Assembly (NCBI RefSeq): GCF_000801105.2
Contig: NC_079518.1
Coordinates: 18,394,800 to 18,458,799 of the forward strand
Length of the DNA: 64,000 nucleotides
Direction of reading: 5' to 3'
Source of the DNA: Raphanus sativus
Lineage: Eukaryota; Streptophyta; Magnoliopsida; Brassicales; Brassicaceae
Part shown: positions 605 through 40,789 of the stretch, one piece after another
Position numbering within the stretch: position 1 is the stretch's first letter
How the letters are laid out: each line of letters begins with the position of its first letter
Made by a program: the position numbers and the translations under genes
The notes under the pieces: generated by a model
The model's input: the letters and a program-made list of their open reading frames with translations, nothing else
What the model was told of the DNA's origin: nothing
Databases searched by the model: none

Positions 605-3419
605 TGATACTGCTCAAATTACCCTATAGAGCTTACTCTCTCAAATAAGAGGTTCAACTGTAGTACTTAGGGATCGAATCACGAGGAGCTAGGGAACCAA
701 TTAAATCTAATCAATTAATCAATCCTAGGTGAAGTTGGTTTTAATGATGAAATGTAAATGACAATTCCTAAAATGGACAAGGTAGTTGCTCTAACTAACA
801 ATATGATGGTTGTTTAACTGATAATAAAGAGTGTTAGACTTAGGGTTTTTATTCAGGAATGGAGATTATAATATTTATAAATGCCTAACAAGTTGCTTGC
901 ATGATACTAAAGAACTCAGCCGCTTAACTCTCAGTGATATCTCAGTGGTTAAATTATCTAGATCTCTGGCCTCAACTGTCGTCTGTTGACCAGAAAAAGA
1001 GTCGATCGATATCCTTTAGAGATACCGAGCGATACACCTTTCGCAGCGCCGATCGATTCACATGTCGGGATATCGATCGACGGCTTCTAGATATGCCTAG
1101 GCGCGAGCCGATAATGAACACTAGGTCTCAAGGAGGGCGGTTAGCTCTTCTCCAAGGAGACAACTAGTTCAAACAGATAATTCAAGATATCAAAGATCCT
1201 AGTGATCTATGTTCTAGTTAGCTACTCTAGAACAAGCTTAGAGTGCAATATATTTGATGAATATCACAACTTAGCAATTATAGTTTGGGGCTAATCCCAC
1301 AAACCTATTTAAACCCTAGATCTAACAAGTAGACTACTCAGACATAGTTAAGCAATTTATAATATAAGATAGATAAACGAATTGCATAGATAGAGAATAT
1401 AAAACAAATGGAGTTCAATCACAAATCTCTCAATGATCTCTCCAATATCTCAAAATATATAAACTCTAGCTTTCTCTCACACTCTATGCTTACTTCTGCC
1501 TTCAAAAGCTTGCTTTTCTTAGACTTGTTCAAAGCTTGCCGTAGAAAACACTTAGCAGGAATATTTAAGCATTTCCATTAGGTTAAAAACTCGTTAGGGG
1601 AAATCTCGTAATTTGGTGAAGTCTTGGTGAAGTAGTCGGCTAAACTATTCCGTCTTCGATATCGATCGACGACACTAGATGTGTATCGATCGATTATAAT
1701 CTTCTAGTACGCGGATCTTCTCAGCTACATCGATCGACAACTCTGGATGAGCATCGATCGATTCTTATCACAATGTTGACTTCCGACTTGGTCTTGAATG
1801 GTCAACTCGGGTGTATTATCTATTGTACTCCAAAATGCTCCAAAAGCATCACTTTATCACGAACCAGAAATACACAGACTTTTACCTTCCAGATTTGTAG
1901 GAGGACTCCGATCCAATGTTTACCAATCCCAAGACAAGCAAGTTAAGTTGATTAAGCTTGGAAGTCAACTTTGGGTTCCAGACATTCTCAGCAGGTATGG
2001 GTGTTAGCATTACGTGATACACTGCATTGTTTCCATTTAATACATCTTGCAATCAATAAATCTAGATGGTGCTAGAGAGTGATTAGAGTAGCAATCAAAT
2101 TTTATTTTATCATAATCCCCTTCTTGACTCAATAAAACACTTTTGAAAACATTTGATAAGACTGATACTGCTTAAATTACCCTATAGAGCTTACTCTCTC
2201 AAATAAGAGGTTCAGCTGTAGTACTTAGGGATCGAATCACGAGGAGCTAGGGAACCAATTAAATCTAATCAATTAATCAATCCTAGGTGAAGTTGGTTTT
2301 AATGATGAAATGTAAATGACAATTCCTAAAATGAACAAGGTAGTTGCTCTAACTAACAATATGATGGTTGTTTAACTGATAATAAAGAGTGCTAGACTTA
2401 GAGCTTTTATTCAGGAATGGAGATTATAATATTTATAAATGCCTAACAAGTTGCTTGCATGATACTAAAGAACTCAGCCACTTAACTCTCAGTGATGTCT
2501 CAGTGGTTAAATAATCTAGATCTCTGGCCTCAACTGTCGTCTATTGACCAGAAAAAGAGTCGATCGATATCCTTTAGAGATATCAAGCGATACACCTTTC
2601 GCAGCGCCGATTGATTCACATATCGGGATATCGATCGACGGCTTCTAGATATGCCTAGGCGCGAGCCGATAATGAACACTAGGTCTCAAGGAGGGCGGTT
2701 AGCTCTTCTCCAAGGAGACAACTAGTTCAAAAAGATAATTCAAGATATCAAAGATCCTAGTGATCTATGTTCTAGTTAGCTACTCTAGAACAAGCTTAGA
2801 GTGCAATCTATTTGATGAATATCACAACTTAGCAATTATAGTTTGGGGCTAATCCCACAAACCTATTTAAACCCTAGATCTAACAAGTAGACTACTCAGA
2901 CATAGCTAAGCAATTCATAATATAAGATAGATAAACGAATTGCATAGATAGAGAATATAAAACAAATGGAGTTCAATCACAAATCTCTCAATGATCTCTC
3001 CAATATCTCAAAATATATAAACTCTAGCTTTCTCTCACACTCTCTGCTTGCTTCTGCCTTCAAAAGCTTGCTTTTCTTAGACTTGTTCAAAGCTTGCCGT
3101 CGAAAACACTTAGCAGGAATATTTAAGCATTTCCATTAGGTTAAAAACTCGTCAGGGGCAATCTCGTAATTTGGTGAAGTCTTGGTGAAGTAGTCGGCTA
3201 AACTATTTCATCTTCGATATCGATCGACAAAACTAGATGTGTATCGATCGATTATAATCTTCTAGTACGCGGATCTTCTCAGCTACATCGATCGACAACT
3301 CTGGATGAGCATCGATCGATTCTTATCACAATGTTGACTTCCGACTTGGTCTTGAATGGTCAACTCGGGTATATTATCTATTGTACTCCAAAATGCTCCA
3401 AAAGCATCATTTTATCACG
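302..3419. repeat. Tandem direct duplication, two 1559-bp units
   Basis: 302-1860 and 1861-3419 are near-identical copies, each with about 300 bp of Athila-like interior followed by most of an LTR. Anchor: 'ggaggactcc' at 341 and at 1900. Only scattered substitutions separate the copies, so the event is recent or has been homogenised. The junction at 1860/1861 lies in a short 'cacgaac' microhomology. The second copy alone continues into the last 109 bp of the LTR. Confidence 0.9.
605..1860 (-). mobile_element. Truncated Athila-like LTR (first copy)
   Basis: Begins TGATACTGCTC and matches the intact LTR at 2163-3528, but is cut at the duplication junction before the terminal TATATCA. It carries several TCGATCGA palindromes (near 1001, 1070, 1660, 1685, 1730 and 1753), as the family's LTRs do. 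Confidence 0.85.
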
Positions 3420-3528
3420 AAACGCTCCTGAACCTGAAAACATACCTAACAGGCTAGAAAACACATTAGTTATATAATAAAATACTACTATACCATGGTA
3501 GAAAATCAGTGAAATCCATGGTATATCA
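2163..3528 (-). mobile_element. 3' LTR of element A
   Basis: 1366 bp with TGATACTG at one end and GGTATATCA at the other, so termini are TG...CA on either strand. It is followed inward by a polypurine tract and is closely similar to solo LTR S (31271-32629). TCGATCGA palindromes occur near 2560, 2628, 3218, 3240, 3288 and 3310. Confidence 0.92.
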
Positions 3529-3543
3529 ACTCCCCCAGACTTA
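3529..3543 (-). promoter_or_regulatory. Polypurine tract of A
   Basis: On the minus strand this reads TAAGTCTGGGGGAGT and abuts the 3' LTR. That is the position and composition expected of the plus-strand primer for reverse transcription. Confidence 0.8.
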
Positions 3544-11141: not shown

Positions 11142-11277
11142 GGGGCTCGGGAGTTACCTTCCGAGATCGAATAACTGACCCCTCGTTCCCTCGAGGACGT
11201 CTAGATTTTTCCCTTGATAACACTGGTTCGGGAGAACAGGCACCTGCTTTCCAAACGCCTCACACAGGACAACTCCT

Positions 11278-12850
11278 GTGTTTAGCCCGCCTCTCACCAG
11301 TGCTATGGGAAGCAACCTAGCATCAACCAGCTCTGTACCAGAGCAGATTACTGGTCAGAGCACTCGCCTACCTCCTCCACCACCTATTCTTAGGTCAGGA
11401 GAAGGAGTATCCAATCCGTCCGGGGGCAGAACGTCAGCTTCGGTGTTTCAGGCCAGAAACCTAAACACGAATCCAGATGAACATCAAAGGACGGATGCTG
11501 ATCCTACAACTCGCCCCACTAACCTAACTCGTCAAAATAACCCAAGGGCCAGTGAGCAAATCAGCCCACCTCGCACTTGGGAAAATGATCGAACACGATT
11601 CCATCAGGGGCCTGTTCGACAGGTACCTAATGATGACCCGACTGTCCTTCCTCTAGAGGGACCTGAGGTTATTCGCAGATATATGGAACGAACTCACGCA
11701 GCTCTCCAAAAATTGGGAGCTCAAGTCCACAAGGCAACGAGCTCAGCTCCCGAAATCGAGAGCTTGATCAAAAAGACCTGTGGAACTCCATTCACTAACA
11801 GAATTGCCAACTCTTACATAAGAGACACTCGAAAAATTAGGATCCCTGAATATGACGAGACCTCACACCCAAAGGCTTACCTGAGAGCCTTCCGGTTAGC
11901 TATCGTGAAAGCTCACCTTGCGAAAGAAGAATGCGAAGCAAGTTACTGCAGGACATTCGCCGTAAATCTAGTCGGAACAGCCCTCGAATGGTTCTCTGGT
12001 CTCGAACCAAATTTGATAGATAGCTTCGACCAGTTAAGCAACACTTTCATGAAGCAATACTCGACTCATATCCTGAAGCAAGCATCCGAGGCTGACCTCT
12101 GGAAAATCAGACAGGGAGTGGGAGACTTGTTACGAGCCTACATCAAAAAAATCAGAGCAGTGAGAACTAAGCTCTCAAACTCCAACGACCAGGTCGCCAT
12201 CGAGGCTCTCAGAAGAGGTCTCTGGTATAAATCAGAACTTTGGTCGGAGCTAACGCTCAATCCTCCCCCAACTATCGACGATGCTCTTCATAAAGCGTCT
12301 AGATACGTCACCTTGGAAGAGGAAACAACTGCACTGGATAAACTCCACAAGAAACCCCAGAATCACCCGAAAGGTGAAGCCTCATAAGCAAAAGGACCTC
12401 ATAAAAAGGGGAACTCTCGAAACAATCAGACCCAGGGAGAACATTCCTATGCAATCGAGGAAGATAAGGAAGAAAAACCTGTCGCCGCAGCAAACAAAAC
12501 CCCCTAGTCAAAAGGATATGATGAGAACAAACACTGCTCTTATCCTGATCGGAAAGGACACTCAACTGAGGAATGTTGGGACCTTCAACGACAACTGGCA
12601 GCTAAATTCACAGGCGGAGAAATAAAATGCGTGGACCTAAAAAAACCACAGACACCAGAGACACCTCACCGAAACGAGAAAGGTCTCCTGAAAAAGAGAC
12701 CGATTCACCATCCCCAGCTCCTAAGAAAAGGGTCGACATGATCCTTGAGAAGCTCTCCTAAGGAAAAAGCCTACAAATCGAGGCCCTCCTGAGCAAACCG
12801 TTACCTCAGTCGAGCCCCGGTTCGAGGGTAGACTACATTCTCGGAGGATC
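11278..12850 (+). pseudogene. gag of B, with zinc knuckle
   Basis: The main open part, 11278-12387, holds a proline-rich N-terminal region (RLPPPPP) and the gag core: GTPFTNRI..SYIRDTRKIRIPEYD, then YCRTFAVNLVGTALEWFSGL, then a C-terminal helical part. Homology to E gag starts before 11278, at about 11149, without the true start. A TAA at 12385-12387 and later stops interrupt it. The nucleocapsid knuckle near 12530-12580 follows the plant pattern C-x2-H-x4-H-x4-C in E but has Pro instead of the first His in B (CSYPDRKGHSTEEC), so zinc binding is probably lost. Confidence 0.85.
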
Positions 12851-12854
12851 TGAT

Positions 12855-13436
12855 ATGTGTCGAGACTCTGTTAATTCTATTAAAACTCATGTACGGAAGG
12901 CTGTGTCTAACACTCAAACTAAGCCTTCTAACCCCGAGTCTAACATTAAGATTTCCTTTTGGGAAAGTGAGACGTCAAACCTTGACAGACCTCACGACGA
13001 TGCCCTGATCGTCACCCTGAACATCGCAGGGTACGAAGTACCCAAGCTCATGGTAGACACCGGGAGCTCTGTCGACCTCATTTTCTACAGCACCCTGAAG
13101 GGGATGGAAATAGACGGGTACGAAATCGTCGACCAGAAGGCTAGTCTCATAGGTTTTTCCGGAGAAATATCTACCTCATTGGGAACTATAAAACTCCCAA
13201 TTATAGCTGGCAGAATCATGAAAATGACGAACTTCGTAGTCATCGACAGACCCTCCCCGTTCCATGCGATCCTAGGAAGACCTTGGATCCATAAGATGAA
13301 AGCAGTAGCTTCAACTTACCACCAATGTGTGAAGTTCCCGACACCTGAAGAGATAGCTACCGTGCACGGTAACCAAAAGATCTCCAGGATCTGTTACCTG
13401 GGAGGATTCGAAATTCTTAAAGAATCGCCCCAATAG
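12855..13436 (+). CDS. Aspartic protease domain of B
   Basis: An open 193-codon stretch with the retropepsin active site in LMVDTGSSVDLIF (about residues 65-77) and the HAILGRPW segment typical of plant gypsy proteases (about residues 142-149). It is the C-terminal part of gag-pro: in E the same region is fused in frame to the zinc knuckle. In B upstream stops separate it, so the ATG at 12855 is only the start of the open part. It ends at a TAG (13434-13436) in a leaky-stop context, followed by RT. Confidence 0.8.
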   Translation: MCRDSVNSIKTHVRKAVSNTQTKPSNPESNIKISFWESETSNLDRPHDDALIVTLNIAGYEVPKLMVDTGSSVDLIFYSTLKGMEIDGYEIVDQKASLIGFSGEISTSLGTIKLPIIAGRIMKMTNFVVIDRPSPFHAILGRPWIHKMKAVASTYHQCVKFPTPEEIATVHGNQKISRICYLGGFEILKESPQ

Positions 13437-13445
13437 CAATTACAG
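13431..13445 (+). promoter_or_regulatory. Putative readthrough stop between pro and RT (B)
   Basis: CAA TAG CAA TTA CAG. The six bases after the stop, CAATTA, fit the CARYYA context known to promote readthrough in tobacco mosaic virus-type RNAs. The frame reopens directly after the stop into RT. The same 12-mer TAGCAATTACAG is at the homologous place in E and D. Confidence 0.6.
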
Positions 13446-13463
13446 ATCCAAGAGGGTCGTGAG

Positions 13464-14975
13464 ATGCAACAGAATATTCGAGGTCCCCCTAAAATCCTCA
13501 CCGAGCAAGTTAGTATCGACGACTCAAATCCTGAAAAACAAGTGAGTATCGGATCTGAGCTACCTTTCGAGACTAAGAAGGAGCTAATTGACTTTCTAAA
13601 AAACAACGTCGGAACCTTTGCATGGACCACTAGTGACATGAAAGGTATAAACGCCGACGTCACTACTCACAAGCTTAATGTAGACCCCACTTTCAAACCG
13701 ATCAAACAAAAGCGTCGCAAGCTAGGCCTAGAAAAGGCACAAGCTGTTAACGACGAGGTCGACCGACTTATGAAAGCTGGGTCCATTCGAGAGGTACATT
13801 ACCCCGACTGGCTAGCTAATCCAGTAGTAGTAAAAAAAAAGAACGGGAAATGGAGAATCTGCGTAGATTTCACCGACCTAAATAAAGCTTATCCCAAAGA
13901 CAGCTTCCCGTTACCTCACATTGATCGTTTGGTCGAGGCCACTGCTGGCCACCAGCTCATGTCCTTCATGGATGCCTTTTCAGGGTACAATCAAATCATG
14001 ACGGATCCCCGACGATCAAGAGAAAACCGCATTCATAACTGAACGAGGGACCTATTGCTATAAGGTCATGCCATTCGGTTTAAAGAACGCATGAGCTACC
14101 TATCAAAGGCTAGTGAATAAAATGTTCGCTGGCCAGCTCGGGAAAACCATGGAGGTCTATATTGACGATATGCTAGACAAATCCTCAGATTGAGAAGACC
14201 ATATCTCCCACTTAAGGGAATGCTTCGATATCCTTAACAAGTACGATATGAAGCTCAATCCCACTAAATGTACCTTCGGGGTACCCTCAGGCGAGTTCCT
14301 AGGCTACCTCGTAACCGAAAGGGGCATTGAAGCCAACCCGCAGCAGATAGCAACCTTCCTGGAAATGCCGTCACCTAAGACAACCAGAGAGGTACAGAGA
14401 TTGACCGGACGAATCGCAGCATTAAATCGATTCATATCCAGGTCAACCAATAAGTGCCTCCCATTCTATAAACTACTAAAAAATAATAAGAAGTTCTTAT
14501 GGGACGAGAAATGTGAGGAAGCTTTCAAGCAATTAAAAGCTTACCTCTCCGAACCTCCGATCCTGTCCAAACCGGTAATAGGAGAGCCACTGTATCTGTA
14601 CCTCGCCGTATCAACCCCTGCAGTTAGTGGTGTGCTGGTACGAGAGGAACAAAACAAATAGAGACCTGTCTATTACACTATCAAAAGTCTGATTGACGCC
14701 GAAACAAGGTACCCTACTATAGAAAAGTTAGCACTGGCGGTCGTAACAGCAGCCAGGAAATTACGACCCTACTTCCAATCGCACTCGATCATCGTAATGA
14801 CGTCACAACCATTACGAATGATATTGCACAGTCCCAGCCAGTCAGGACGATTGGCTAAATGGGCCATAGAGCTCAGTGAATATGACATCGAATACAGACC
14901 TCGAGCAGCAGCAAAGGCTCAGGTTCTTGCCGATTTTATCATTGAGCTAGCATATGAGCAATTAGACTCGGAAAT
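13464..14975 (+). pseudogene. Reverse transcriptase and first RNase H of B
   Basis: Fingers and palm: KQKRRKLGLEKAQAVNDEV, then the WLANPVVVKKKNGKWRICVDF and LNKAYPKDSFPLP motifs, FMDAFSGYNQI, then MPFGLKNA and the YIDD catalytic box near 14160 (YIDDMLDKS, where E has LVKS). An indel near 14000 (MTDPRRSREN in place of the relative's DPEDQEK-type sequence) shifts the frame. TGA codons near 14092 and 14192 and a TAG at 14659-14661 add breaks. The connection and first RNase H (LYLYLAVS...SGVL, ETRYPT.EKLALAVV, LRPYF) run to about 14975. The parts are collinear with E. Confidence 0.87.
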
Positions 14976-15399
14976 GGAAGCTCCGAAGTGGAACTTGTAC
15001 GTCGACGGAGCCTCGTCAAAACAAGGTTCCGGTATCAGACTAAGGCTGACTTCTTCAGCTGGAGAAACCATCGAGCAGTCCTATAGGCTCGGATTCAGCG
15101 CCTCAAACAGCGAGGCTGAATATGAAGCACTAATCGCAGGGTTGAAACTCGCCCTAAGCCTCGGAATTCGAAAGCTAAACGCTTATAGTGATTCACAGCT
15201 AGTAGCTAGCCAGTTTCACGGAGAATACGAAACGAGGGACGAAAGAATGGGGGCATATCTCGAAGTCGTCCAGAACCTCACTAGGCAGTTCGACAAGTTC
15301 GAGCTAACAAGAATCCCACGAGGAGAGAACTCCTCAGCAGATGCGTTGGCTGCTTTAGCCTCCACGTCAGATCCCCTCGTAAAACGGATCATACCGTAA
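14976..15399 (+). pseudogene. Second (archaeal-type) RNase H of B
   Basis: Begins WNLYVDGASSKQGSG, with later acidic landmarks NSEAEYEALIAGL, YSDSQLV and NSSADALA: four carboxylates in the order expected of a cellular/archaeal-type RNase HI fold. A duplicate RNase H between the retroviral-type RNase H and integrase is a hallmark of Tat elements. It ends at a TAA (15397-15399), where E stays open into the linker. Confidence 0.82.
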
Positions 15400-15880: not shown

Positions 15881-16867
15881 CAAAGTCGTAGGGAGAGAGG
15901 ACTGGAGAACACCAATCATGCAATACATCCTGGAGGGAAAGACTCCACCCAATAAATGGGAGGCTCGAAAAGTCAAAGCATTGAGCGCGTGATACTGCAT
16001 AATCAATTCTGCCCTCCACAAACGAAGCGTTTCCGGACCTTACCTAAAATGTGTTCATGGCCTTGTTGCTATGAAACTCATGAAGGAAATGCACAACAGC
16101 TCCTGTGGAAACCACTCATGTGGCAGAGCTCTAGCTATCCGAATCAAAAGACAAGGCTATTTCTGGCCTACTATTATTGCAGACTGTGAGGTCTGCTCTT
16201 TCTCATGCGACAAATACCAGAGGCATGCACCGATTATACACCAACCTGCGGAAAAGCTATGAGGTGGTCCATGGACATCGTAGGACCATTAGTAGCATCA
16301 GGAAGTGGAAAGAAGAATCTACGCTTCCTCTTAGTCCTAACAGACTACTTCACGAAATGGATTGAGGTTGAAGCTTTCCAACAGGTAACCAGATTCGAAG
16401 TCGAACGATTTGTGTGGAAAGACATTGTGTGTAGACACGGCGTCCCATACAAAATCGTAACTGACAATGGAAGGCAATTCATATCTCACGACTTCAAAAT
16501 ATTTTGTGACAAATGTAATATCCGCCTGACCTTCTCAACACATCGGCGCCCTCAAGGAAACGGCCACGCGGAGGCTGCTAATAAATCAGTATTAGCAAAC
16601 CTCAAGAAACGCCTCGGAACCCAGAAGGAACTCTGGTCAGAAAAGTTACCTGAGGTACTTTGGGCATGTCGAACCACCCCACGAAAGGCTACAGTGGAAA
16701 CCCATTTCTCCTTAGCCTACGGGATGGAAGCTGTCGTCCCAGCCGAAACCATTGCTGGTAGCCTCCGCCGGGAACTCTGTACGTCCGATCCTGCAGCTAA
16801 TGACCAGCTCCTGACGGACAGCCTCGATCTAATCGAGGAAAGACGGGAGCGAGCCCTGGTTCGCATT

Positions 16868-16967
16868 NNNNNNNNNNNNNNNNNNNNNNNNNNNNNNNNN
16901 NNNNNNNNNNNNNNNNNNNNNNNNNNNNNNNNNNNNNNNNNNNNNNNNNNNNNNNNNNNNNNNNNNN
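16868..16967. other. Assembly gap of 100 N
   Basis: Flanks 'cgcatt' and 'caaaac' are adjacent in E ('cgcattcaaaac', about 35439-35450), so nothing need be missing. Confidence 0.95.
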
Positions 16968-17068
16968 CAAAACTATCAGCAAGCAATGGCAGGACAGTAC
17001 AACTCCAAAGTCATGCCCTGACAGTTCGCTGTAGGCGACCTAGTACTTAGGAAAGTTTTTGAAGAAAC

Positions 17069-22765: not shown

Positions 22766-23705
22766 TGAGTTTTAAGAGTGTCAAAATGTTTTTGATGGAG
22801 GCACCACCATACGATCACACAAGTATGGGGGAAAGAGAAGGTAGAATTGGAAGAAGAGAAAAAGGATCAAGGACAATCCTCAGTTATCACTGATTCCTAA
22901 ATTCTAAAATGATGTCAGAAAATCCAGAGTGCACAACAGATACTTCTCACAGCCATTTGCAATGTTTTGAGCAATCCTTATTGCTAAGATGATAGACAAA
23001 GGAGAAGAGTCCGTGGAAGAGGATTTCACAAAAGAATGATAAAGCTTCAAAGAGTAGACATTGAGATTTGTTTTGGAGCATGTAAAAAATGATGAAGAGT
23101 GCGGACGACACTACAACAACAGTGTAGAGCGACACTGTAGCGAGAACATCGAGCGACACTATAGCAAGAACATTGGTCGACACTGTAGCAGAGTTACTGT
23201 AGTAGAGTCACTATAGTTGTGATACTTTAGCAACACTACTGTCGAAGAGTCACTGTTCATTGGAATAAAAATTATTAATTAATTGGTTTTATTTTAATCT
23301 ATTACTAAGTTTTGTGTTTTATTAATTTCAGGTTAAAAAAACAAAAGAGATCCAAGGAAGATGAGTTTCCACAAGAATCGACGATGACTAGCTATCATTG
23401 ATCGACAGAGCATCAATAATATTGATCGCCACTTTACTGTGTTGATTGGCACTCACATCAAAGGCAGATATACCGTTTTCTTGTCATATTTATTACATAT
23501 GATTTATTTTCTTACCAATCTTAGACTGTATAACACTTCAGTGTGTCGATCGACACGGACATCACAAGCTTGTATATCGTTCTTACTTGTTAAATTATGC
23601 ACTTATGATTTATGTTCTCACCAAACTTCGACTGGATATACACTTAAGACAATGTAATTTAAGTCTAGGGGAAGGTTTACTGATATTGAGTTTATTGTGA
23701 GTCTT
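22766..23705 (+). other. 3' non-coding region of C
   Basis: No gene. A 'cgacactgtagc' type repeat recurs between about 23100 and 23200, with diverged copies to 23250. G has the reverse-complement phrase near 54095-54190. A polypurine-like 'taagtctaggggaagg' is at 23659-23674, about 30 bp before the LTR rather than at its edge. Confidence 0.65.
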
Positions 23706-24330
23706 TGATATACCATGAATTTCACTCATTTTCTACCATGGTATAGTAGTATTTTATTATATAACTAATGTATTTCCTAGCCTGTTAGGTATGTTTTCAG
23801 GTTCAGAAACGTTTCGTGATAAAGTGATGCTTTTGGAGCATTTTGGAGTACAAGAGATAATACACCTGAGTTGACCATTCAAGACCAAGTCGGAAGTCAA
23901 CATTGTGATAAGAATAGATCGATACTCATCCAGAGTTATCGATCGATGTAGCTGAGAAGATCCGCGTACTAGAAGATTATAATCGATCGATTCACATCTA
24001 GTGTTGTCGATCGATATCGAGGACGAAAGGGTTTAGCCGACTACTTCACCAAAACTTCACCAAATTACGAGATTGCCCCTGACAAGTTTTTAACCTAATG
24101 GAAATACTTAAATATTTCTGCTAAGTGTTTTTGACGGCAAGCTTTGAACAAGTCTAAGAAAAGCAAGCTCTTGAAGGCAGAAGCAAGTAGAGAGTGTGAG
24201 AGAAAGCTAGAGTTTATATGTTTTGAGAGACTGGAGAGATCATTGAGAGATTTGTGATTGAACTCCATTTGTTTTCTATTCCATATCTATGCAATTCTTT
24301 TATCTATCTTATATTATGAATTGCTTAGCT
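23706..24330 (+). mobile_element. 3' LTR of C, truncated ('half B')
   Basis: Begins TGATATACCATG and is the reverse complement of the A/S type LTR as far as 'gaattgcttagct', where the LTR of D starts at 24331. The missing part corresponds to what is present, inverted, at 10308-11017; the two overlap by TAGCT. Confidence 0.9.
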
Positions 24331-24804: not shown

Positions 24805-26638
24805 GTGACGATGGCATTAGAGGACGACGCTAACCAGTCGGAGATGACTCCGAGAGAGATCGAGCTTCTCAACAGGCTTGAGTTTCTTCAGATTCAGGTC
24901 ACCGATCTTCACAAAGCTCGGGAGACGACACCCGGAGGTCCTGAACTTCTCCTCGAAGTTCAAACCCTAAAAGACCAACTTGGAGAGCACTCCAAGCAAC
25001 TACAGCAAGCGCCAAGAAGCTAGACGCCATAGAGGCGGAAAATCTTGTCCTCCGACAAGAGAACCATACCCTCGGTGAAGTTAGCAACAAGCGAAAGCGG
25101 TTCCGGACTAAGGTATGACCCATGGCTTCACTCTACACTCAGCGAGACAGTGAAGAGGTACCTCGCCGACCTGCCTCAACCGAAGACGAACCCGAAAGCC
25201 GAGGAGCCGCGAACGATAGGACCCGAGTACAAGTAGATAGCGATTCCGATACGGAGGACGAGGAGTATTCACCCGACAATCCCAAGATCTCAGATCCAGC
25301 CCTAGCAGCTTACTTAGAAAGAGTGGTCTCCGAAAGGTTCGGCACCATTCAATCTATGGTAGAAAGGCTTCCAGGGGCAGCTCCTCCTATTCGAAGAAGC
25401 AATCAGGGGTCCTACTCCGATACACCTTTTGTGGAAGAGATTGCTTCGGTGGAGATGCCGCGAAAGTTCTCTTTCCCAAGCATAAAGATGTACGAAGGTA
25501 CTGGGGATCCCGACAATCACATTGCTCAGTACAAGCAACGCATGCTAGCAGTAGCAATCCCTCAAGATGCACGGAAAGCTACCATGTGCAAGGGATTCGG
25601 ATCGACCTTGACCGGCCCGCTCTTCAGTGGTATATCAACCTGCCCACCAAATCCATCAAATCCTTTGCAGCCCTTAGCGATAAGTTCGTGGAGCAGTTTG
25701 CTAGCAGCCGTGACCTATAAAAGAATTCGGATGATCTCTACAAGATCCTCCAGCATAGGAATGAGCCCCTTTGTTCTTACATAGCTCGCTTCAACCAGGC
25801 GAAGGTGGCTATTCCTGAGTGCAACGCTGATACGACTAACTCAGCCTTCAAGAGGGGTCTACTTCCAGTGGGAGACCTTTACAAGGAGCTGATCAAATAC
25901 AAGTGCAGGATTATGGAAGATGTGCTCTCCTGTGCTTGGGTTCAAGTAAGATGGGAAGAAGATGTTGCTAGTAGGACTAAAGCCGGTCCAAAGTACGATC
26001 AGAAGCCGTCAAAGGCTACAAGGAATGACCGCGACGAGTCTTCCCACTCGAAGTCCGCCAGGGAGACTAGCAACCCGAATAGGGGCAGGTATCAGCATCG
26101 ACCTTTGCCTAGATCCGAAGGGATGATTGTGTCTACTTGGCCTGACATCTCCCATCTCGCGATAACTAAACCGGAGCTGATCAGTGACTTACGACAAATG
26201 GGTCCTCAAGTTAAGTGGCCTCCTAAGATGAAGGCCGCAGAGGCTAATCGAAATCCCAAGCGATGGTGCGAGTTCCACAGTGATCATGGACATACTACAG
26301 AGGATTGCATAGCCCTAAAGATGGAAGTCGCCGAGCTCCTCAAGAACTTTTTAAATAAAGAAAGTCCCAGCCTCCCTATCGAGGCAGCTCCTGCATTGCC
26401 ACCACAGCAAGATCGGGTTATCCACGTCATCACAGGTGGATCAGAGGTGAGCGGAATTAGCAGTGCCGCAGCCAAGAAAAGTACTCGCAATGCCAGGAAC
26501 GGCCGAGAGGCCGAGGGTCCCAAGCGCCTGCCCCTTGGAACAGATGAGATCAGTTTCACTGCAAGGGACCAGGAGAAGGTCCTCGTCCCTCATCATGACG
26601 CTCTCGTCAACCTTAGGGGAAAGACTCAGGTCTCATAG
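24805..26638 (+). pseudogene. gag of D (three frames, zinc knuckle)
   Basis: N-terminal coiled coil (REIELLNRLEFLQIQVTDL) in one frame from 24805; the gag core start (FSFPSIKMYEGTGDPDNHI..YK..M) in the frame of 25122-25784; the rest (ECNADTTNSAFKRGL...) in the frame of 25805-26638. Two frameshifts thus break it. The zinc knuckle CEFHSDHGHTTEDC (near 26270-26310) follows C-x2-H-x4-H-x4-C. After PHHDALV the protease found in B and E is absent, and the sequence jumps to the pre-RT TAG at 26636-26638. Confidence 0.83.
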
Positions 26639-26647
26639 CAATTACAG
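26636..26647 (+). promoter_or_regulatory. Putative readthrough stop before RT (D)
   Basis: TAG CAA TTA CAG after TCA; the frame reopens at once into the pol N-terminal region. The 12-mer is identical to that in B and E although the codons around it differ. Confidence 0.6.
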
Positions 26648-27381
26648 AAGAAGCTTCCGGCCCCACATACCGAAGAGCCGGAAGTGGAAGAAATGGATGA
26701 GGTCCCGCTCACGGAAGGGAACTCGAGTCGAAACTTAAAGATAGGCTCCAAGCTTCCGGAAATCTTGAGGAGGAGACTGATCGATTTCTTAAGATCCAAC
26801 TCCGATTACTTCGCCTGGTCTCATGAAGACATGCCTGGAATTGATCCTGATGTTATCATGCACCAACTCAAGGTGGATCCAATGCATCCTCCTGTCAGAC
26901 AGAAGAGGAGAAAACTCGCTCCTGAAAGGGATGAGATAATCAACGAAGAGGTCAAGAACCTACTAGATGCTGGATTCATACGAGAAGTGCAATACCCGGA
27001 ATGGCTAGCCAATGTGGTGGTCGTGAAGAAGAAGAATGGGAAGTGGAGAGTCTGTATCGATTTCACGGACCTTAATAAGTCATGTCCTAAAGATCCTTTC
27101 CCTCTGCCTCACATCGACAAGCTGGTCGACGCAACGGCTGGTCACGAGCTGATGAGCTTCATGGATGCATTCTCTGGATACAATCAGATCCTAATGCATC
27201 ATGACGATCAAGAGAATACCTCATTCATGACCTCAAGGGGCATCTACTGTTACAAGGTTATGCCTTTCGGATTGAAGAACGTCGGCTCAACCTACCAAAA
27301 GCTTGTCAACATGATGTTCGCCGATCAGATAGGGCAGACCATGGAAGTCTACATTGATGACATGTTGGTGAAGTCCCTAGA
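26639..27381 (+). pseudogene. Reverse transcriptase of D, 5' part
   Basis: An open frame with FAWSHEDMPGIDPDVIMH, QKRRKLAPERDEIINEEV, WLANVVVVKKKNGKWRVCIDF, LNKSCPKDPFPLPHID, FMDAFSGYNQI, MPFGLKN and the catalytic YIDDMLVKS box. It stops at 27381 only because E inserted (TSD CTAGA, 27377-27381). It resumes at 47775. The RT motifs are intact in this half. Compared with E it is a different subfamily. Confidence 0.9.
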
Positions 27382-27929
27382 TGTTGGGCCCAAATATGGC
27401 CCGTTAGCTGACGATAGAACCAAAACAAGTATTGGGCCGAGATAAAGCCCAACGCGTATCGGCGACCTTAGCTAAGGTTTAATACGAAGCCGGAGGCTGG
27501 AAGCTAAGGGCAATCTTCGAAGAGGTCACGGTAAAGAGGAAGCTCACATCATAACAAAAGGAGCGCAGGACCCGGTCAAAGGGAAGCTGTTGCGGATTCC
27601 TCAACAATCGGAGAAGATCTCGGAGATCAGTTAAAGATAATAAAGAGAAGTCCAAAGCTATTTAAAGAGAAGAGCGAGGACTAAAGAGGGGGATCCGATT
27701 CAACACATATTCGACTCCTATTCATTTTCACGATCATACACCCAAACTCTAAAATATTTACCATCTTTGTAATCATTCTGATATACATTCTTTGTAACCA
27801 TTCTTTACCAAAATCATCAATACAAAATCATCATTCATTCTACAAGTTCTTACGGGATTCAGCCCACGTTATCTTTCCTTTTAACCTTAACCTGATCTAA
27901 AAACCAGGTAGTGAGTTTAGACCCTCACA
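27382..27929 (+). mobile_element. 5' LTR of E
   Basis: 548 bp, TGTTGGGCCCAAATATGG to TTAGACCCTCACA. The 3' LTR, after removal of F and one TTGCG, is also 548 bp and differs at a small number of positions. Confidence 0.93.
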
Positions 27930-27982: not shown

Positions 27983-29439
27983 ATGAATCCTACCAATCAG
28001 ACAACGAATCCGTCTGACCTTAACCTCCCGATTCAGAGCGATGGCTCACCGAACGATGGAGGCTCTAATCTCGTAACTTCGGAGCCTCGACGTGGCGATC
28101 ACCGATCTGGGCAACAGCCTCCGGCTAGCGCTCGAACGAGCCTGACTGCCATTGGAGCTACCAACCCAAGATCGTCAAGTGGAACCGCCCCCGGGCTTCC
28201 AGTCACCGAGAACCCTCAGCAGCAAGCCACTCCGAATCAAATGAAGGCTCACCTCTCTGAGATTCGTTAGATGATGATGCAATTAGTAGACAAAGCTCAG
28301 GAAAATGAGCGTACAATGCATCAGCTAGCTGTTCGGCAGCAACGATTTGAAGAGGTAACTAGATCTCTAAACGCAACAACCCAACCACCGCAACGTCAAG
28401 CTCCGTGGGTCACTTTCGGAGATCGATTAACCGATCCCTCGTTCCCCCGAGGACGTTTAGACTTTTCTCCCGACAGCACTATTCCGGAAGGACGGGGGTC
28501 TGCTTTTCAGTCACCTCATACTGGGAAAGCTCCCGCGTTTAACCCACCTGTCACCAGTGCTATGGGAAGTAACGCAGCGACAACCAGCTCCACACCCAGT
28601 CAGATTGCTGACTGGAGCACTCGCTTACCTCCTCCGCCGCCTGATTTTAGGTCCGGAGCAGGAGTATCCTTCCCATCTGGGGGCAGAACATCAGCTTCGG
28701 TTTATCAAACCAGAAGCTCAACCCCGAATGTGGATGGGTATCAAAGGGTAGACTCCAATAACCCAAGAGCTGGTGAGCGACTTAGCCCACCAACTGCATG
28801 GGAAGATGAACCAACACGATTCCATCAGGAACCTGCCCGTCGGATACGTAATAACGACCCAAATGTCCTTCCCTTAGAGGGACCTGAAGCTATCCGCAGG
28901 TATATGGAACAAACTCACGCAGCTCTCCAAAAATTGGGAGCTCAAGTCCACAAGGCAACGAGCTCGGCTCCCGAAATTGATAGCTTGATTGAAGAAACCC
29001 GTGGGACTCCATTCACTGACAGAATTGCCAGTTCTTACATAAGAGATACCCGAAAAATTAGAATTCCCGAGTATGATGGGACTTCTGACCCAAAGGCCTA
29101 TTTGAGAGCCTTCCGATTAGCTATCGTGAAAGCCCATTCTACGCAAGAAGAATGTGAAGCAGGTTACTGCAGGACATTCGCCGGAAACCTGGTCGGAACA
29201 GCTCTTGAGTGGTTCTCTGGTCTCGAACCAGCCTCGATAGACAGCTTCGATCAGTTAACTAATGCCTTCATGAAGCAGTACTCGACCCATATCCTGAAGC
29301 AAGCCTCTGAGGCCGATCTCTGGAAGGTCAGACAAGGAATGGGGACTCGCTACGAGTCTACATCGAGAAATTCAGAGCAGTAAGAACTAAGATCTCGAAA
29401 CCCAACGACCAAGTCGCCATCGAGGCCCTTAGAAGAGGT
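27983..29439 (+). pseudogene. gag of E, N-terminal and core
   Basis: Starts at an ATG (MNPTNQTTNPSD...) about 35 bp after the primer site. A TAG at 28268-28270 interrupts the frame, which continues with a coiled-coil segment (LVDKAQENERTMHQLAVRQQ), a proline-rich region and the gag core (RKIRIPEYDGTSDPKAYLR, GYCRTFAGNLVGTALEWFSG). A one-base deletion near 29340, relative to B, shifts it. The C-terminal part goes on in the next entry. Confidence 0.86.
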
Positions 29440-30672
29440 ATGTGGTATAAATCGAAATTCTGGTCGGAGCTAACACTCAATACTCCTCCAACTATCGATG
29501 ATGCTCTTCATAAAGCCACTAGATATATTACTTTGGAGGAGGAGACAGCTGCACTGGATAAACTCCACAAGAAACCTCAGAATCACTCGAAAGGTGAATC
29601 CTCAGAGGCAAAGGGACCTCATAAAAGGGGGAACCTCCGAAACAATCAGACTCAAGGAGAACATTCCTATGCAATCGAGGAGGACAAGGAAGAAAAACCT
29701 GTCGCCGCAGCAAACAAAACTCCCTGGTCAAAAGGCTTTGATAAGAACAAACATTGCTCCTATCACGATCGAGAAGGGCACTCAACTGAAGAATGTTGGG
29801 ACCTCCAACGACAGCTTGCAGCTAAATTCGCAGTCGGAGAAATAAAGGGCGTGGACCTCAAAAAGCCACCGCCCTATCAGAAAAGAGGTCCCAGAGATAC
29901 CTCTCCAAAACGCGAAAGGTCACCAGAGAAGGAGACGGATTCGCCACCTCCAGCTCCCAAGAAGAGAGTCGATATGATTCTTGGAAAATTCCCCCAAGGA
30001 AAAAGCCTGCAAATCGAGGCTCTCTTGAGCAAACCGTCACCTCAATCGAGTCCCGACTCGAGGGTGGACTGTATCCTTGGAGGATCAGATATATGTCAAG
30101 ACTCCGTCAATTCCATTAAGAATCACGTACGGAAGGCTGTGTCTAACACTGGACCTAAGCCTCCCAACCCCGAATCCAATACTAAGATTTCTTTCTGGGA
30201 AAGCGAGACCTCAAACCTTGACAGACCTCACGATGATGCTCTGATTGTCACCCTGAACATCGCAGGATACGAGGTGCCTAAACTCATGATAGATACAGGA
30301 AGCTCTGTTGACCTTATTTTCTACAACACCCTGAAAGAGATGGAAATAGACGACTACAAAATTATTGGCCAAAAAGCTAATCTCGTAGGCTTCTCCGGAG
30401 AAACAGCTACCTTATTGGGAATTATCATGCTCCCAATCATAGCTGGCGGAATAATGAAAATGACCAATTTAGTAGTCATCGACAGACCTTCCCCGTTCCA
30501 TGCGATCCTAGGAAGACCCTGGATTCACAAAATGAAGGCAGTAGCTTCGACTTATCATCAATGCGTGAAATTCCCAACACCTGAAGGAATAACTACCGTA
30601 CATGGTAGCCAGAAGATCTCCAGGATCTGCTACCTGGGAGGATTCGAAATCCTCAAAAAATCCCACCAATAG
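29440..30672 (+). CDS. gag C-terminus, zinc knuckle and protease of E
   Basis: A 410-codon open frame. It contains the end of the gag core, a basic linker, a zinc knuckle CSYHDREGHSTEEC near residues 107-120 (C-x2-H-x4-H-x4-C), a Pro/Lys-rich stretch and a retropepsin domain with LMIDTGSSVDLIF near residues 283-295 and HAILGRPW near 360-367. It shows that gag and protease are one frame in this family. It ends at a TAG in leaky context. Confidence 0.87.
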   Translation: MWYKSKFWSELTLNTPPTIDDALHKATRYITLEEETAALDKLHKKPQNHSKGESSEAKGPHKRGNLRNNQTQGEHSYAIEEDKEEKPVAAANKTPWSKGFDKNKHCSYHDREGHSTEECWDLQRQLAAKFAVGEIKGVDLKKPPPYQKRGPRDTSPKRERSPEKETDSPPPAPKKRVDMILGKFPQGKSLQIEALLSKPSPQSSPDSRVDCILGGSDICQDSVNSIKNHVRKAVSNTGPKPPNPESNTKISFWESETSNLDRPHDDALIVTLNIAGYEVPKLMIDTGSSVDLIFYNTLKEMEIDDYKIIGQKANLVGFSGETATLLGIIMLPIIAGGIMKMTNLVVIDRPSPFHAILGRPWIHKMKAVASTYHQCVKFPTPEGITTVHGSQKISRICYLGGFEILKKSHQ

Positions 30673-30687
30673 CAATTACAGATCTAG
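30667..30687 (+). promoter_or_regulatory. Putative readthrough stop between pro and RT (E)
   Basis: CAA TAG CAA TTA CAG, as in B. Here a second TAG at 30685-30687 follows two codons later, where B has CAA, so readthrough would now fail in this copy. Confidence 0.6.
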
Positions 30688-31270
30688 GAGGATCGCGAAA
30701 TGCAACAAAACATTCGAGGTCCCACTAAGAACCTCACCGAAAAAGTTTGCATCGACAACTCAAATCCTGAAAGACAGGTGAGCATCAGATCTGAGCTACC
30801 TCTTGAGACCAAAAAGGAGCTCATTGACTTCCTGAAAAGCAATGTCAAAAACTTTGCATGGTCCACCAATGACATGAAAGGTATAGACCCGAACGTCACA
30901 ACCCACAAACCGAAGGTAGACCCCACTTTCAAACCGATCAAACAAAAGCGTCGCAAGCTGGGCCTTGAAAAGGCTCAAGCTGTTAACGACGAAGTTGACC
31001 GACTTACGAAAGCTGGATCCATTCGAGAGGTACACTACCCTGACTGGTTAGCTAACCCGGTAGTCGTAAAAAAGAAAAACGGGAAATGGAGAATCCGTGT
31101 AGACTTCACCGACCTAAACAAGGCTTGCCCTAAAGACAGCTTCCCGTTACCTCAGATCAACCGCCTGGTTGAAGCAACAGCTGGCCATCGACTCCTATCC
31201 TTCATGGATGCCTTCTCAGGATACAACCAAATCATGATGGATCCTGAGGACCAGGAAAAAACCGCATTCA
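30688..31270 (+). pseudogene. Reverse transcriptase of E, 5' part
   Basis: An open frame to the S insertion, with QKRRKLGLEKAQAVNDEVDR, WLANPVVVKKKNGKWRIRVDF, LNKACPKDSFPLP, FMDAFSGYNQIMMDPEDQEK. It ends at the target site ATTCA (31266-31270) of solo LTR S. The second part starts at 32630. Confidence 0.9.
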
Positions 31271-32629
31271 TGATAGTGCTCAAATTACCCAGTAGAGCTT
31301 ACTCTCTCAAATAAGAGGTACAGCTGTAGTACTTAGGGATCGAATCACGAGGAGCTAGGGAACCAATTAAATAAAATCTACTAATCAATCCTAGGCAAGG
31401 TTGGTTTATATGATGGAAATAAAAATAACAAATCCTAATATGAGCAAGGCAGTTGCTCCAACTAACAATATGAAGGGTTGTTTAAATGGGATAAAGAGTG
31501 CTAGACATAGGGTTTCTATTCAGGGATGGAGATTATAATCTCTATAAATGCTTTAATAAGTTGCTTGCATGATACATTAGCTCTCAGCCGCTTAACACAT
31601 GTGAATGAATCACTGGTTAAAATATCTAGATCTCTGGCCACACCTTTCGCATGATGACACGGAAAAAGAGTCGGTCGATATCCTTTTGAGATATCGAGCG
31701 ATACACCTTTCGCGGCGCCGATCGATTTACCAGTAGGGTATCGATCGACGGCTTCTAGATCTGCCTAGGCGCGAATTGAATATGACCGCGAGGTCTCAAG
31801 GAGGAACTGTCGTTCTTCTCAACGGGAAACAGGCATCGCTCAAATAGATAATTCAAGATAATCTAAGATTCTAGTGATCTATGTTCTAGTTAGCTACTCT
31901 AAAACAAGCATAGGGTACAATTCATTTGATGAGTATCACAACTTAGCAATTATAGCTTGGGGCTAATCCCACAAACCTATTTAAACCCTAGATCTAACAA
32001 GTAGACTACTCAGACATGGCTAAGCAATTCATAACAATAGATAGATGAAAGAATTGCATAGATAGAATAAAGTAGGAATACAAAAGGAGATGAGAAATCT
32101 CTCCAATCTCTCTCAAACAAATAAAACTCTAGTCTCTCTCTCACACTCTCTGCTTTGGTTGTGAAAAGCTTCAAGCTTCAAAGGGTTTCAAAACTTGCCA
32201 TCAAAAAGACTTTGCAGGAGTATTTAAGCATTTCCATTAGGTTAAAAACTCGTCAGGGGCAATCTCGTAATTTGGTGAAGTCTTGGTGAAGTAGTCGGTT
32301 AAACCATTCCGTCCTCGATATCGATCGACAACACTGAATGTGTATCGATCGATTATAATCTTCTAGTACGCGGATCTTCTCAGCTGCATCGATCGACGAC
32401 TCAGGATGAGTATCGATCGATTGTAATCGCAATGTTGACTTCCGACTTAGTCTTGAATGGTCAACTCGGGTGTATCATCTCTTGTACTCCAAAATGCTCC
32501 AAAAACATCACTTTCTCACGAAATGCTCCTGAACCTGAAAACATACCTAACATGCTAGAAAACAGATTAAATATATAATAAAATACTAGTATGCCATGGT
32601 TAAAAACGGGTGAAATCCATGGTATATCA
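31271..32629 (-). mobile_element. Solo LTR S of the Athila-like family
   Basis: 1359 bp from TGATAGTGCTC to GGTATATCA, same family as the LTR of A. The target duplication ATTCA is at 31266-31270 and 32630-32634. Only one LTR is present and no interior, so an element inserted in RT of E and was removed by LTR-LTR recombination. ORF sequence across the left edge is chimeric. Confidence 0.95.
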
Positions 32630-32987: not shown

Positions 32988-34716
32988 CTGGATGAATCGC
33001 AGCATTAAATCGATTCATATCCAAGTCCACCGACAAGTACCTCCCATTCTACAAACTTCTAAGAAATAATAAGAAGTTCTTATGGGACGAGAAATGTGAG
33101 GAAGCCTTCAAACAATTGAAAGCTTACCTCTCCGAACCTCCGATCCTATCCAAACCTGTAGTAGGAGAGCCACTGTACCTGTACCTCGCCGTATCAACTG
33201 CTGCAGTTAGCGGTGTGCTGGTACGAGAGGAACAAAACGAACAAAGACCTTCTATTACACCAGCAAGAGCCTGATAGATGCCGAAACAAGGTACCCTGCA
33301 ATGGAAAAATTAGCGCTAGCGGTCGTAACTGCTGCCAGGAAATTGCGACCTTACTTCCAATCGCACTCGATCGTCGTAATGACCTCGAAACCATTACAAA
33401 TGATATTGCACAGCCCCAGCCAGTCATGGCGATTGGCTAAATGGGCCATAGAACTCAGCGAATACGACATTGAGTATAGACCTCGAGCAGCAGCGAAGGC
33501 TCAGGTCCTTGCCGATTTTGTCATTGAGCTAGCATCTGAGCAATTAGACACTGAAATGGAATCTCCAAAGTGGAGCCTGTATGTTGACGGAGCCTCATCA
33601 AAACAAGGCTCCGGCGTCGGGCTAAGGCTGACTTCCTCAGCTGGAGAAACCATCGTGCAGTCCTATAGGCTCGGATTCAGTGCCTCAAATAACGAAACTG
33701 AATATGAAGCACTAATCGCAGGGTTAAAACTCGCCCTAAGCCTCGGAATTCGAGAACTAAACGCTTATAGTGATTCACAGTTAGTAGCTAGCCAAATTCA
33801 CGGAGAATATGAAACGAGGGACGAAAGAATGGGGGCATATCTCGAAGTCGTCCAGAACCTTACTAGGCATTTCGACAAGTTCGAGCTAACAAGGATCCCA
33901 CGAGGAGAGAATTCCTCAGCAGATGCGCTGGCTACTTTAGCCTCCACATCAGACCCCCTCGTAAAACGAATCATACCCGTAGAAGGAATCGAAAAACCGA
34001 GCATCGACATAGCTACTAAAGCTGAGATAGACAGCAAGCCAAAAGAGCAAACCGAAGATACCTGCCCTGAAACAGTAACTACCCAAGTTCTCACAACATT
34101 CTGGTTCCCAAAAGCCAAAATACGCAGCTCTAAAAAGCAGACCTCCGGGAACACAATCCAAAACACCGAAAACAACGAAGGTATTCCCCGAAATTCAGAC
34201 TCCTTGGAGCCTAATCTCACGAATACCTCCGGGGGCACCATCCGGACCTCGGACCCACTCGTCTGTAGAGTCAAAACCAGAAGTCGCTCAGCTCTCAAAA
34301 ATTCATCTGTGGGCACCATCCAGACCCCGGAGAATAACGGAGAAAGTGGAGGTATTCCTCAGAATTTGGACTCCCTGGAGCCTAATCCTACGAATACCTC
34401 CGGGGGCACCACGACACCAGGTCCCGAACAGGAACCTCCCTCATCTCTTCATAACAAAGTTGTAGGGAGAGAGGATTGGAGAATACCAATCACGCAGTAC
34501 ATCCTGGAGGGAAAGACTCCACTCAATAAATGGGAGGCTAGAAAGCTCAAAGCATTAAGTGCGAGATATTTTATAATCGAATCCGCTCTCCACAAACGAA
34601 GCATTTTCGGACCTTACCTAAAATGCGTCCATGGCCTCCTTGCTATGAGACTCATGAAGGAAATGCACGACGGCTCCTGTGGAAACCACTACAGTGGAAA
34701 AGCTCTAGCTATCTGA
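32988..34716 (+). pseudogene. RNase H domains, linker and integrase N-terminus of E
   Basis: The first RNase H connection (AYLSEPPILSKPV, LYLYLAVS) is shifted by a one-base loss near 33248. The frame of 33301-34716 then stays open for 471 codons: the end of the first RNase H, a second archaeal-type RNase H (SLYVDGASSKQGSGVGLRLT..., NNETEYEALIAGL, YSDSQLV, NSSADALA), the repeated NTSGGTI linker, and the start of integrase with its HHCC His region (HDGSCGNHYSGKALAI), ended by a TGA. The dual RNase H marks the Tat lineage. Confidence 0.87.
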
Positions 34717-35704
34717 AACAAAAGACAAGGCTATTACTGGCCTACCATTATTGCAGACTGTGAGGTCTACTCTTCCTCATGTGATGAATGCCAGAGGCAT
34801 GCACCAATTATACACCAACCTGTGGAGAAGCTATCCAACATATCCGCCCCTTACCCATTTATGAGGTGGTCCATGGACATCGTAGGACCACTAGTAGCGT
34901 CAGGAAGTGGAAAGAAGAAGCTACGCTTCCTCTTGGTCCTGACAGACTACTTCACGAAATGGATAGAGGCTGAAGCTTTCCAGCAAGTAACCAGATTCGA
35001 GGTCGAACGGTTTGTATGGAAAGATATTGTGTGTAGACACGGCGTCCCATACGAAATCGTGACTGACAATGGAGGACAATTCATATCCCACAACTTCAAA
35101 ATATTTTGCGACAAATGGAATATCCGCCTGACCTTTTCAACACCTCGACGCCCTCAAGGAAACGGCCAGGCGGAGGCTGCTAATAAATCAGTATTAGCCA
35201 ACCTCAAGAAACGCCTTGGAACTCAGAAGGAACTCTGGTCAGAAAAGTTACCTGAAGTACTTTGGGCATGTCGAACCACCCCACGAAAGGCTACAGAGGA
35301 AACCCCTTTCTCCTTAGCTTACGGGATGGAAGCTGTCGTCCCAGCCGAAACTCTGTATGTCAGATCCTGTAGCTAACGACCAGCTCCTGACGGACAGCCT
35401 CGATCTAATCGAGGAAAGACGGGACCGAGCTCTGATTCGCATTCAAAACTATCAGAAAGCAATGGCACGACAGTACAACTCCAAAGTCAGGCCCCGACAG
35501 TTAGCTGTAGGTGACCTAGTACTTAGGAAAGTCTTCGAAGCAACCAAGGAACCAGATGCTGGGAAGTTAGGAACCAACTGGGAGGGTCCTTACCGGATCA
35601 TCCACGTGGTACGACCTGGCATTTACAAGCTCCAAAAGGTGCGAACCGGGGTACCTGAAATCAGATCGTGGAATGCCACGAATCTTAAGAGATACTATCA
35701 TTAG
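34717..35704 (+). pseudogene. Integrase of E, CC pair, core and C-terminus
   Basis: CDECQRHAP gives the Cys pair of the zinc module. The core has [16 protein letters not shown] and QAEAANK (Asp, Asp and Glu in DD35E spacing). A deletion of about 26 bp near 35349, relative to B and flanked by short microhomology, breaks the frame. The C-terminal part 35357-35704 has KLGTNWEGPYRI (GPY/F module) and ends RYYH. It would insert cDNA into the genome in an intact relative. Confidence 0.88.
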
Positions 35705-40027: not shown

Positions 40028-40035
40028 TATATAAA
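40028..40035 (+). promoter_or_regulatory. TATA box of the F LTR
   Basis: TATATAAA in 'ggagtatataaaggagc', with G/A-rich sequence following. The same is at 46674-46681 in the 3' LTR. It is the best candidate for the genomic RNA promoter, about 540 bp downstream of the minisatellite. Confidence 0.6.
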
Positions 40036-40668: not shown

Positions 40669-40789
40669 TATTTGATCACTTGTTGTTGGTTGTCGCAGAG
40701 AATCCGGACCTTCAGGGAAAGTTAGGTTTACTTAGCTTTCCTCCGATTTACTTACTTAAAATCGACAGTGCGAATTTCGGTTCCCACAG

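Follow-up and report, generated by a model that had tools for sequence, protein, structure and literature searches.

A candidate leaky UAG stop codon between the gag-pro and reverse transcriptase frames of Tat retrotransposons in radish

We propose that in some families of Tat retrotransposons from radish (Raphanus sativus), Gag-Pro-Pol is made by programmed readthrough of a UAG stop codon. Judging from comparisons of sequences, we consider this very likely. Ribosomes on the element's RNA would yield Gag-Pro, as they would usually terminate at the UAG. A fraction of them would insert an amino acid there, aided by CAA UUA on the 3' side of the stop (a type I context, as in tobamoviruses), and would continue to give Gag-Pro-RT-RH-aRH-INT. 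The outcome would be an excess of Gag-Pro over Gag-Pro-Pol. We infer the occurrence of readthrough, its rate, and the residue inserted at the UAG from the sequences and by analogy with TMV. As described in passages of PMC2754532, the TMV context led to the insertion of tyrosine at the UAG in tobacco leaves; readthrough was 32% in one plant reporter and ~20% in another, and it was lost if the C after the UAG was changed to G.

The stop codon in three elements

In the window (the whole stretch of 64,000 nt that we analyzed), the 12-mer TAGCAATTACAG occurs exactly three times, always on the + strand: at 13434-13445 in element B, at 26636-26647 in element D, and at 30670-30681 in element E. No further exact copies were found in the window. 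The RT frame resumes at the codon after the TAG, in the same frame, in all three elements, and the translations across the stop (shown as *) are PQ*QLQIQEG for B, VS*QLQKKLP for D, and HQ*QLQI*EDR for E. A first-pass annotation had reported the 12 identical bases, the in-frame reopening of RT past the TAG, and a CAA upstream of the TAG that is common to B and E; our exact search and translations agree, and the shared CAA is present. The features of the three elements, all on the + strand, are:

11221..12387, + strand: B, gag frame (Retrotrans_gag, PF03732, E = 2.9e-15)
12762..13436, + strand: B, protease frame, which ends at the candidate leaky UAG (open frame; PF13650, 26.1 bits, cut-off 24.3)
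13431..13447, + strand: B, CAATAGCAATTACAGAT, matching the TMV readthrough cassette of PMC2754532 at all 17 nt, with the UAG at 13434-13436 (sequence comparison)
13437..14042, + strand: B, RT frame that reopens in phase at the codon after the UAG, cut short by decay (RVT_1, E = 2.9e-6, 27.6 bits, just below the curated cut-off of 29.6)
14662..15399, + strand: B, RNase H and then the additional RNase H (RVT_3), the hallmark order of Tat (Pfam matches)
16190..17050, + strand: B, integrase core (PF00665)
25721..26638, + strand: D, gag frame fused by a protease deletion to the C-terminus of gag-pro, ending at the UAG at 26636-26638 (open frame and comparison with the D clade; no match in Pfam)
26636..26647, + strand: D, TAGCAATTACAG; 14 nt, ATAGCAATTACAGA, are common to B, E, and the TMV cassette (sequence comparison)
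26639..27445, + strand: D, RT frame directly after the UAG (RVT_1, E = 1.2e-19)
28271..29383, + strand: E, gag frame, frameshifted relative to the protease (open frame; DNA similarity to B)
29311..30672, + strand: E, gag C-terminus and protease frame, which ends at the UAG (open frame; protease by alignment with B, with no Pfam match of its own)
30667..30683, + strand: E, CAATAGCAATTACAGAT, with the UAG at 30670-30672 (sequence comparison)
30685..30687, + strand: E, second in-frame TAG (among 40 B/E-clade junctions, this codon is CAG in 38, TAG in L147, and CAT in L142; in B, it is CAA)
30688..31314, + strand: E, RT frame, broken after ~31271 by an LTR-like insertion (open frame, repeat alignment, and Pfam)
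33211..34716, + strand: E, RNase H and additional RNase H (Pfam matches)
34717..35376, + strand: E, integrase core (domain match)

B and E are Ty3/gypsy elements of the Tat lineage (Ogre/Retand type), by their domain order and their additional RNase H. Both have the order PROT-RT-RH-INT: B has protease, RVT_1 (just under the cut-off), RNase H, and integrase, and E has RVT_1, RNase H, and integrase, with its protease placed by alignment with B. In both elements, RT_RNaseH is followed by RVT_3 before rve; according to a passage of PMC6317226, an additional RNase H between RH and INT marks the Tat elements of angiosperms. The spacer or intron that separates the gag-pro and RT frames of Ogre is absent, and the UAG alone parts the frames.

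The first-pass annotation described the upstream frame as gag-pro in B and E and as gag in D. This is partly right. The TAG does close the protease frame in B and E, but gag is out of frame with the protease in both. The "gag" of D is a gag-pro frame that has lost its protease: it jumps from PHHDALV to NLRGKTQVS* across an internal deletion. Because other D-clade copies do have the protease and end with TL(R/K)GKTQVL* at that same TAG, the stop in D is the same gag-pro stop. All three elements in the window are decayed, and the second TAG in E reflects decay of that copy, since the codon is nearly always CAG at other B/E-clade junctions and is CAA in B.

The 9-mer pattern TAGCARYYA was observed 12 times in the window, as compared to 3.3 expected, and four of the 12 are in copies of an LTR-like repeat. 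We rejected TAGCAATTATAG (at 1272, 2830, 10940, and 31944) as unrelated to the junction, as it sits in copies of one LTR-like repeat.

Other features of the window are as follows. The RT of E is broken by a 1.36-kb LTR-like sequence at 31272-32630, which resembles repeats at 605-3529 and 23705-24333. On its two sides, the alignments of B with E share 6 bases, as a target-site duplication would produce. Two head-to-tail copies of a 1.56-kb LTR-like repeat (302-1863 and 1861-3421) are 97.9% identical. The 1.93-kb direct repeats at 38862-40788 and 45510-47434 are 99.7% identical and are likely the LTRs of a young insertion that split a D-like copy of pol (38649-38861, and from 47435 on). Behind the integrase of E there is a 281-aa antisense frame with a match to DUF1633 (36702-37544, - strand), similar to the antisense frames described in Retand elements, where they lie between pol and the 3' LTR.

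Junctions across the radish genome

We searched one assembly of R. sativus (433 Mb). TAGCAATTACAG occurs 574 times genome-wide, as compared to 48 times for its reversed control, and 27 of the 28 sites that we inspected closely are B/E- or D-clade pro-RT junctions (the exception is L001). To avoid choosing junctions by their motif, we picked our samples by similarity to RT.

For the B/E clade, we sampled 40 junctions from 150 listed RT matches: 26 whose pol frame reaches 1217 aa or more, and 14 others. TAG is present in all 40, the exact 12-mer in 38, and CAATAGCAATTACAGAT in 38. Every one of the 26 copies with a long pol frame has TAGCAATTACAG (C4:25913234, which is among them, carries a TAG inside its match). 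For the D clade, we fetched 40 of the 80 junctions that were prepared from 144 matches. TAG is in register in 38 of these; L074 has it shifted by 2 nt, and L080 is rearranged. Counting L074, 31 of the 40 have the exact 12-mer, and no sense codon was found at the stop among the 39 recognizable junctions. Outside of this sample, a D-type copy at 76% identity (L095) has TAA at the stop. Among another eight partial D-type copies, five have TAG near the expected position, with the 12-mer or a variant of it that differs by one base. L108 carries TAA instead, and no junction could be recognized in L103 or L107.

We also looked for B/E-type junctions while leaving part of the site free. With any codon allowed at the stop, TAG was found in 99 of the first 100 listed of 346 places, and the other place had TTG. 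With any hexamer allowed after the TAG, CAATTA was found in 95 of the first 100 listed of 349 sites, and the others were CAACTA (two), AAATTA (two), and CAATGA (one), so 97 of these 100 fit CARYYA, the type I context. Both of these free searches, with 99 and 95 hits per 100, concern one clade in which many copies share a recent ancestor; what they show is that the site is retained, not that it was selected independently. Random 10-kb samples of the genome contained three B/E-type junctions, all with the 12-mer, and two junctions of another type with TGG (see below).

A conserved island between diverged clades

To compare the clades, we aligned 38 B/E copies with 38 D copies at the stop (1444 pairs), after dropping L109 and L133 (upstream indel), L074 (displaced), and L080 (rearranged). 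The mean identity was 97.7% at positions -1 to +12, versus 22.9% upstream and 20.3% downstream; counts within a clade are not independent (recent shared ancestry, one genome), and this comparison between clades amounts to one independent contrast. Outside the island, the identity between B/E and D is at the level that unrelated sequences would give. It had been noted before that the flanks of D are strongly diverged from those of B and E while the motif is identical, and these percentages bear that out. Both clades encode QLQ directly after the stop. Constraint on this peptide alone might explain part of the island, but it would be a weak alternative because QLQ has 24 possible codon spellings. 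The TMV cassette as printed in PMC2754532 shares 17 nt with B and E and 14 nt with D.

Could ribosomes instead terminate at the UAG and then reinitiate, or initiate internally, at a close downstream AUG? There is an AUG close behind the stop in B (27 nt past it) and in E, and this kind of Met is where gene predictors place the start of RT proteins. The best argument in favor is that all 26 copies with long pol frames keep the Met 27 nt past the stop. Of the 14 other B/E copies, however, 10 have Ile at that position (and further cases were seen), and the first AUG in the D clade is 54 nt past the stop. Nor does a downstream start account for the 14 bases shared by clades that are otherwise unalignable there. 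Overall, we think that a downstream start is unlikely.

A downstream RNA structure might also stimulate readthrough, but the signal for one is weak: simple 100-nt folds at the three stops, which model secondary structure without pseudoknots, gave z of -1.67, -0.80, and -1.33 and showed no strong simple structure.

Coding constraint on both sides of the stop

Between B and E, the ratio dN/dS is 0.09 in the protease (the last 150 codons before the stop). After the stop, it is 0.10 in the first 19 codons (a small count, with 5 synonymous changes and 3 others), 0.15 in the first 59 codons, and 0.12-0.15 in the piece of pol. In both of the other frames, dN/dS is above 1.

In principle, an intron could remove the stop from some of the transcripts. 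This happens at the same place of the polyprotein in Ogre, where a spacer is spliced (as described in part of PMC6317226), and some protein models from Eutrema skip the stop, apparently by means of predicted introns; two of these resume with QLK or QLQ. But the radish elements have no spacer. The constraint reaches the stop and continues past it in one frame, and in 19 of the 23 copies in which gag-pro and pol matches could be paired, the aligned matches are just 6 nt apart. Removing an intron would delete constrained coding sequence, and splicing does not need CAATTA after the TAG. Because there is coding constraint on both sides of the stop, we disfavor an intron across it and consider it quite improbable, more so than a downstream start.

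Young copies with both frames open

By the terms of the first-pass annotation, readthrough would be refuted if relatives that are intact and were active recently had a sense codon, or bases without any relation to the motif, at this site. In the B/E clade we saw the opposite, as the 26 copies with pol frames of at least 1217 aa all keep TAGCAATTACAG and at least 15 copies are open on both sides. Specifically, a gag-pro match adjoins the pol match in 23 of these 26 copies, and the gag-pro frame is at least 800 aa in 14. One of those, C4:25913234, is off by one base, which leaves 13 matched copies with gag-pro of at least 800 aa in the same frame as pol. In L150 and L151, which we read directly, gag-pro runs without a stop for at least 886 aa, counted from its first Met. 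Thus, in at least 15 B/E copies, the UAG is the sole stop between a gag-pro of at least 800 aa and a pol of at least 1217 aa. The downstream frame is open and in the same frame in the B/E clade, as a readthrough signal requires. In the D clade, RT is in frame past the stop, and the longest RT-side frame among the D-type matches is 984 aa.

Of eight gag-pro pieces that we read, four have no stop up to their edge, one is open for 800 aa, and three close earlier. Pairwise identity among five of these pieces is 98.5-99.6%; L152 and L154 are 92-94% identical to those five, and L151 is ~88% identical to them. Given these levels of identity, more than one lineage spread with the stop in place.

These copies bear on two other explanations. 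One is that the UAG is a true terminator, so that the copies are donors of Gag-Pro and Pol is supplied in trans by families with a single frame. Such Tat families do coexist in this genome, with frames of up to 1970 aa, and one clade lacks RT close behind its stop (both are described below). However, the pol frame past the UAG is open for at least 1217 aa in 26 of the 150 listed copies. These long frames, and the dN/dS of 0.12-0.15 between B and E in pol, imply that the pol behind the UAG is used, and we consider supply in trans to be highly improbable. The other is that the UAG is a functionless pseudogene stop that was inherited by descent. The decay of B, D, and E would be consistent with this, but it is contradicted by the young copies that are open on both sides and keep the stop, as well as by the conservation of the context between diverged clades, and we give it almost no credence.

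For a single UAG that stands in a type I context and parts two constrained frames in young copies, programmed readthrough is the simplest account. The conserved island of 14 bases is left unexplained by reinitiation, by splicing, and by supply in trans. The proposal in the first-pass annotation that these elements make gag-pol by readthrough has strong comparative support: 26 of 26 copies with long pol frames keep the motif, at least 15 are open on both sides, and the stop is found in 39 of 40 D copies (displaced in one).

Other Tat families

Readthrough would be the strategy of some Tat families and not of all, since more distant Tat families in radish use a sense codon. One Tat-like family has a single frame of up to 1970 aa (its RT matches lie in open frames of 1962-1970 aa), with many copies of equal score. 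Among 11 loci of this type that we fetched, 10 have sense sequence at the site and L094 has unrelated sequence there. A sister family has TGG CAATCG at the stop site in both of the radish loci that we examined (L038 and L045), and protein records for this family from Brassica and Raphanus read WQS or WQL at the site. Relatives of this family in Eutrema include 12 proteins that end after ...KLL, as well as P0035, which reads KLLWQLHIGE, and two protein models that resume past the stop with QLK or QLQ. Judging by protein sequences in the case of Eutrema, this suggests that the site switches between a stop and Trp while the Q-L or Q-S behind it stays.

A third Tat-like gag-pro clade in radish has TAA or TAG at the homologous place, without CARYYA, in three of three loci (L157, L158, and L159, or G000:C3:9317120, C2817:9434, and C1:16655774). 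RT was absent in frame from the ~95 codons that we read behind the stop at each of the three loci. This suggests another expression strategy or a non-autonomous group. Because this clade's stops have neither CARYYA nor RT in frame, a stop at the end of gag-pro does not by itself mean readthrough. In a separate observation, at ~4.2-5.0 kb of L043, a gag-pro frame ends with TAGTAG and then CAACCG, and there is no RT match in that 10-kb stretch.

Proteins from other plants end at a similar place. Our search found 191 proteins, of which 120 were listed; five of these lack the anchor, and 62 of the 115 anchored proteins end 29-31 aa past the same protease landmark. These shared ends are found in Brassicaceae, Silene, Asteraceae, spinach, and others. 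We do not take the 62 to be the number of elements that use readthrough: in radish, one clade with such ends has neither CARYYA nor in-frame RT in the stretch that we read. Outside of the radish genome, we found no relatives in viral contigs, genome contigs, or phages, and plasmids gave two distant matches that are not from plants.

A bolder idea is that Tat elements and tobamoviruses arrived at the same extended signal beyond CARYYA (an A before the UAG and CAG A after CAAUUA), and that Tat families switch between a single sense-codon frame and UAG as a dial for the ratio of Gag-Pro to Pol. We offer this tentatively, and we suspect that it does not hold in full.

Comparison to known systems

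The closest parallel is type I readthrough in TMV and other tobamoviruses, in which the UAG is followed by CAAUUA and the extension, in the same frame, leads to the polymerase. B and E also share with TMV the CAA before the stop and the CAGAU after, to give 17 nt of the cassette (PMC2754532). Unlike the viral replicase, the radish elements are genomic Ty3/gypsy elements in which readthrough would link Gag-Pro to Pol, as proposed from sequence.

The gammaretrovirus MLV offers another parallel, but the context of its stop is different and the radish stops have no strong simple structure. In MLV, UAG readthrough makes Gag-Pol, via a downstream pseudoknot. Among plant LTR retrotransposons, SIRE1 reportedly has UAG-CARYYA with about 5% readthrough. 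According to a passage of PMC2829016, SIRE1 (a Ty1/copia element of soybean) has a single in-frame stop that is thought to be suppressed; that stop lies between pol and an env-like frame, whereas the stop in the Ty3/gypsy elements of radish lies between gag-pro and RT. A fungal copia element uses UGA, without CARYYA (PMC3441728, in part).

Within Tat, gag or gag-pro and the rest of pol are in separate frames in part of the Retand clusters (PMC11963269 and PMC6317226), as in radish, but the passages of these reports mention neither the context of a stop nor readthrough as a mechanism. A 2025 survey of Retand elements describes a single frame for gag and pol in 37 clusters (59%), with two frames in the other clusters (a passage of PMC11963269). 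Neumann et al. 2019 describe Tat groups with two frames and splicing in Ogre (a passage of PMC6317226). As in the radish elements, the break in Ogre is between gag-pro and RT, where it regulates synthesis of the polyprotein; but in Ogre it is a spacer with a mean of 274 bp, which is an intron in pea and Medicago, instead of a single codon (PMC6317226, in the same part).

The passages available from PMC1142308, PMC7385966, and PMC5009743 contain nothing on readthrough in Tat elements. Across the titles, the beginnings of abstracts, and the passages of the open-access literature, we found no description of UAG-CARYYA readthrough in these elements. The parts are known, and it is their combination, a type I readthrough signal at the gag-pro/RT junction of Tat elements, that we did not find in that portion of the literature.

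Implications

The protein records of these elements run only as far as the stop. Annotation therefore divides one element between two proteins, gag-pro and RT, and a whole element may be scored as broken. How plant Ty3/gypsy elements set the ratio of Gag to Pol is mostly unexplained: many have a single frame, and Ogre uses splicing. If our proposal is correct, then readthrough would be a further route to this ratio in plant Ty3/gypsy elements. With leaky-stop, sense-codon, and other Tat families side by side, the radish genome would be a natural experiment on the Gag-Pol ratio.
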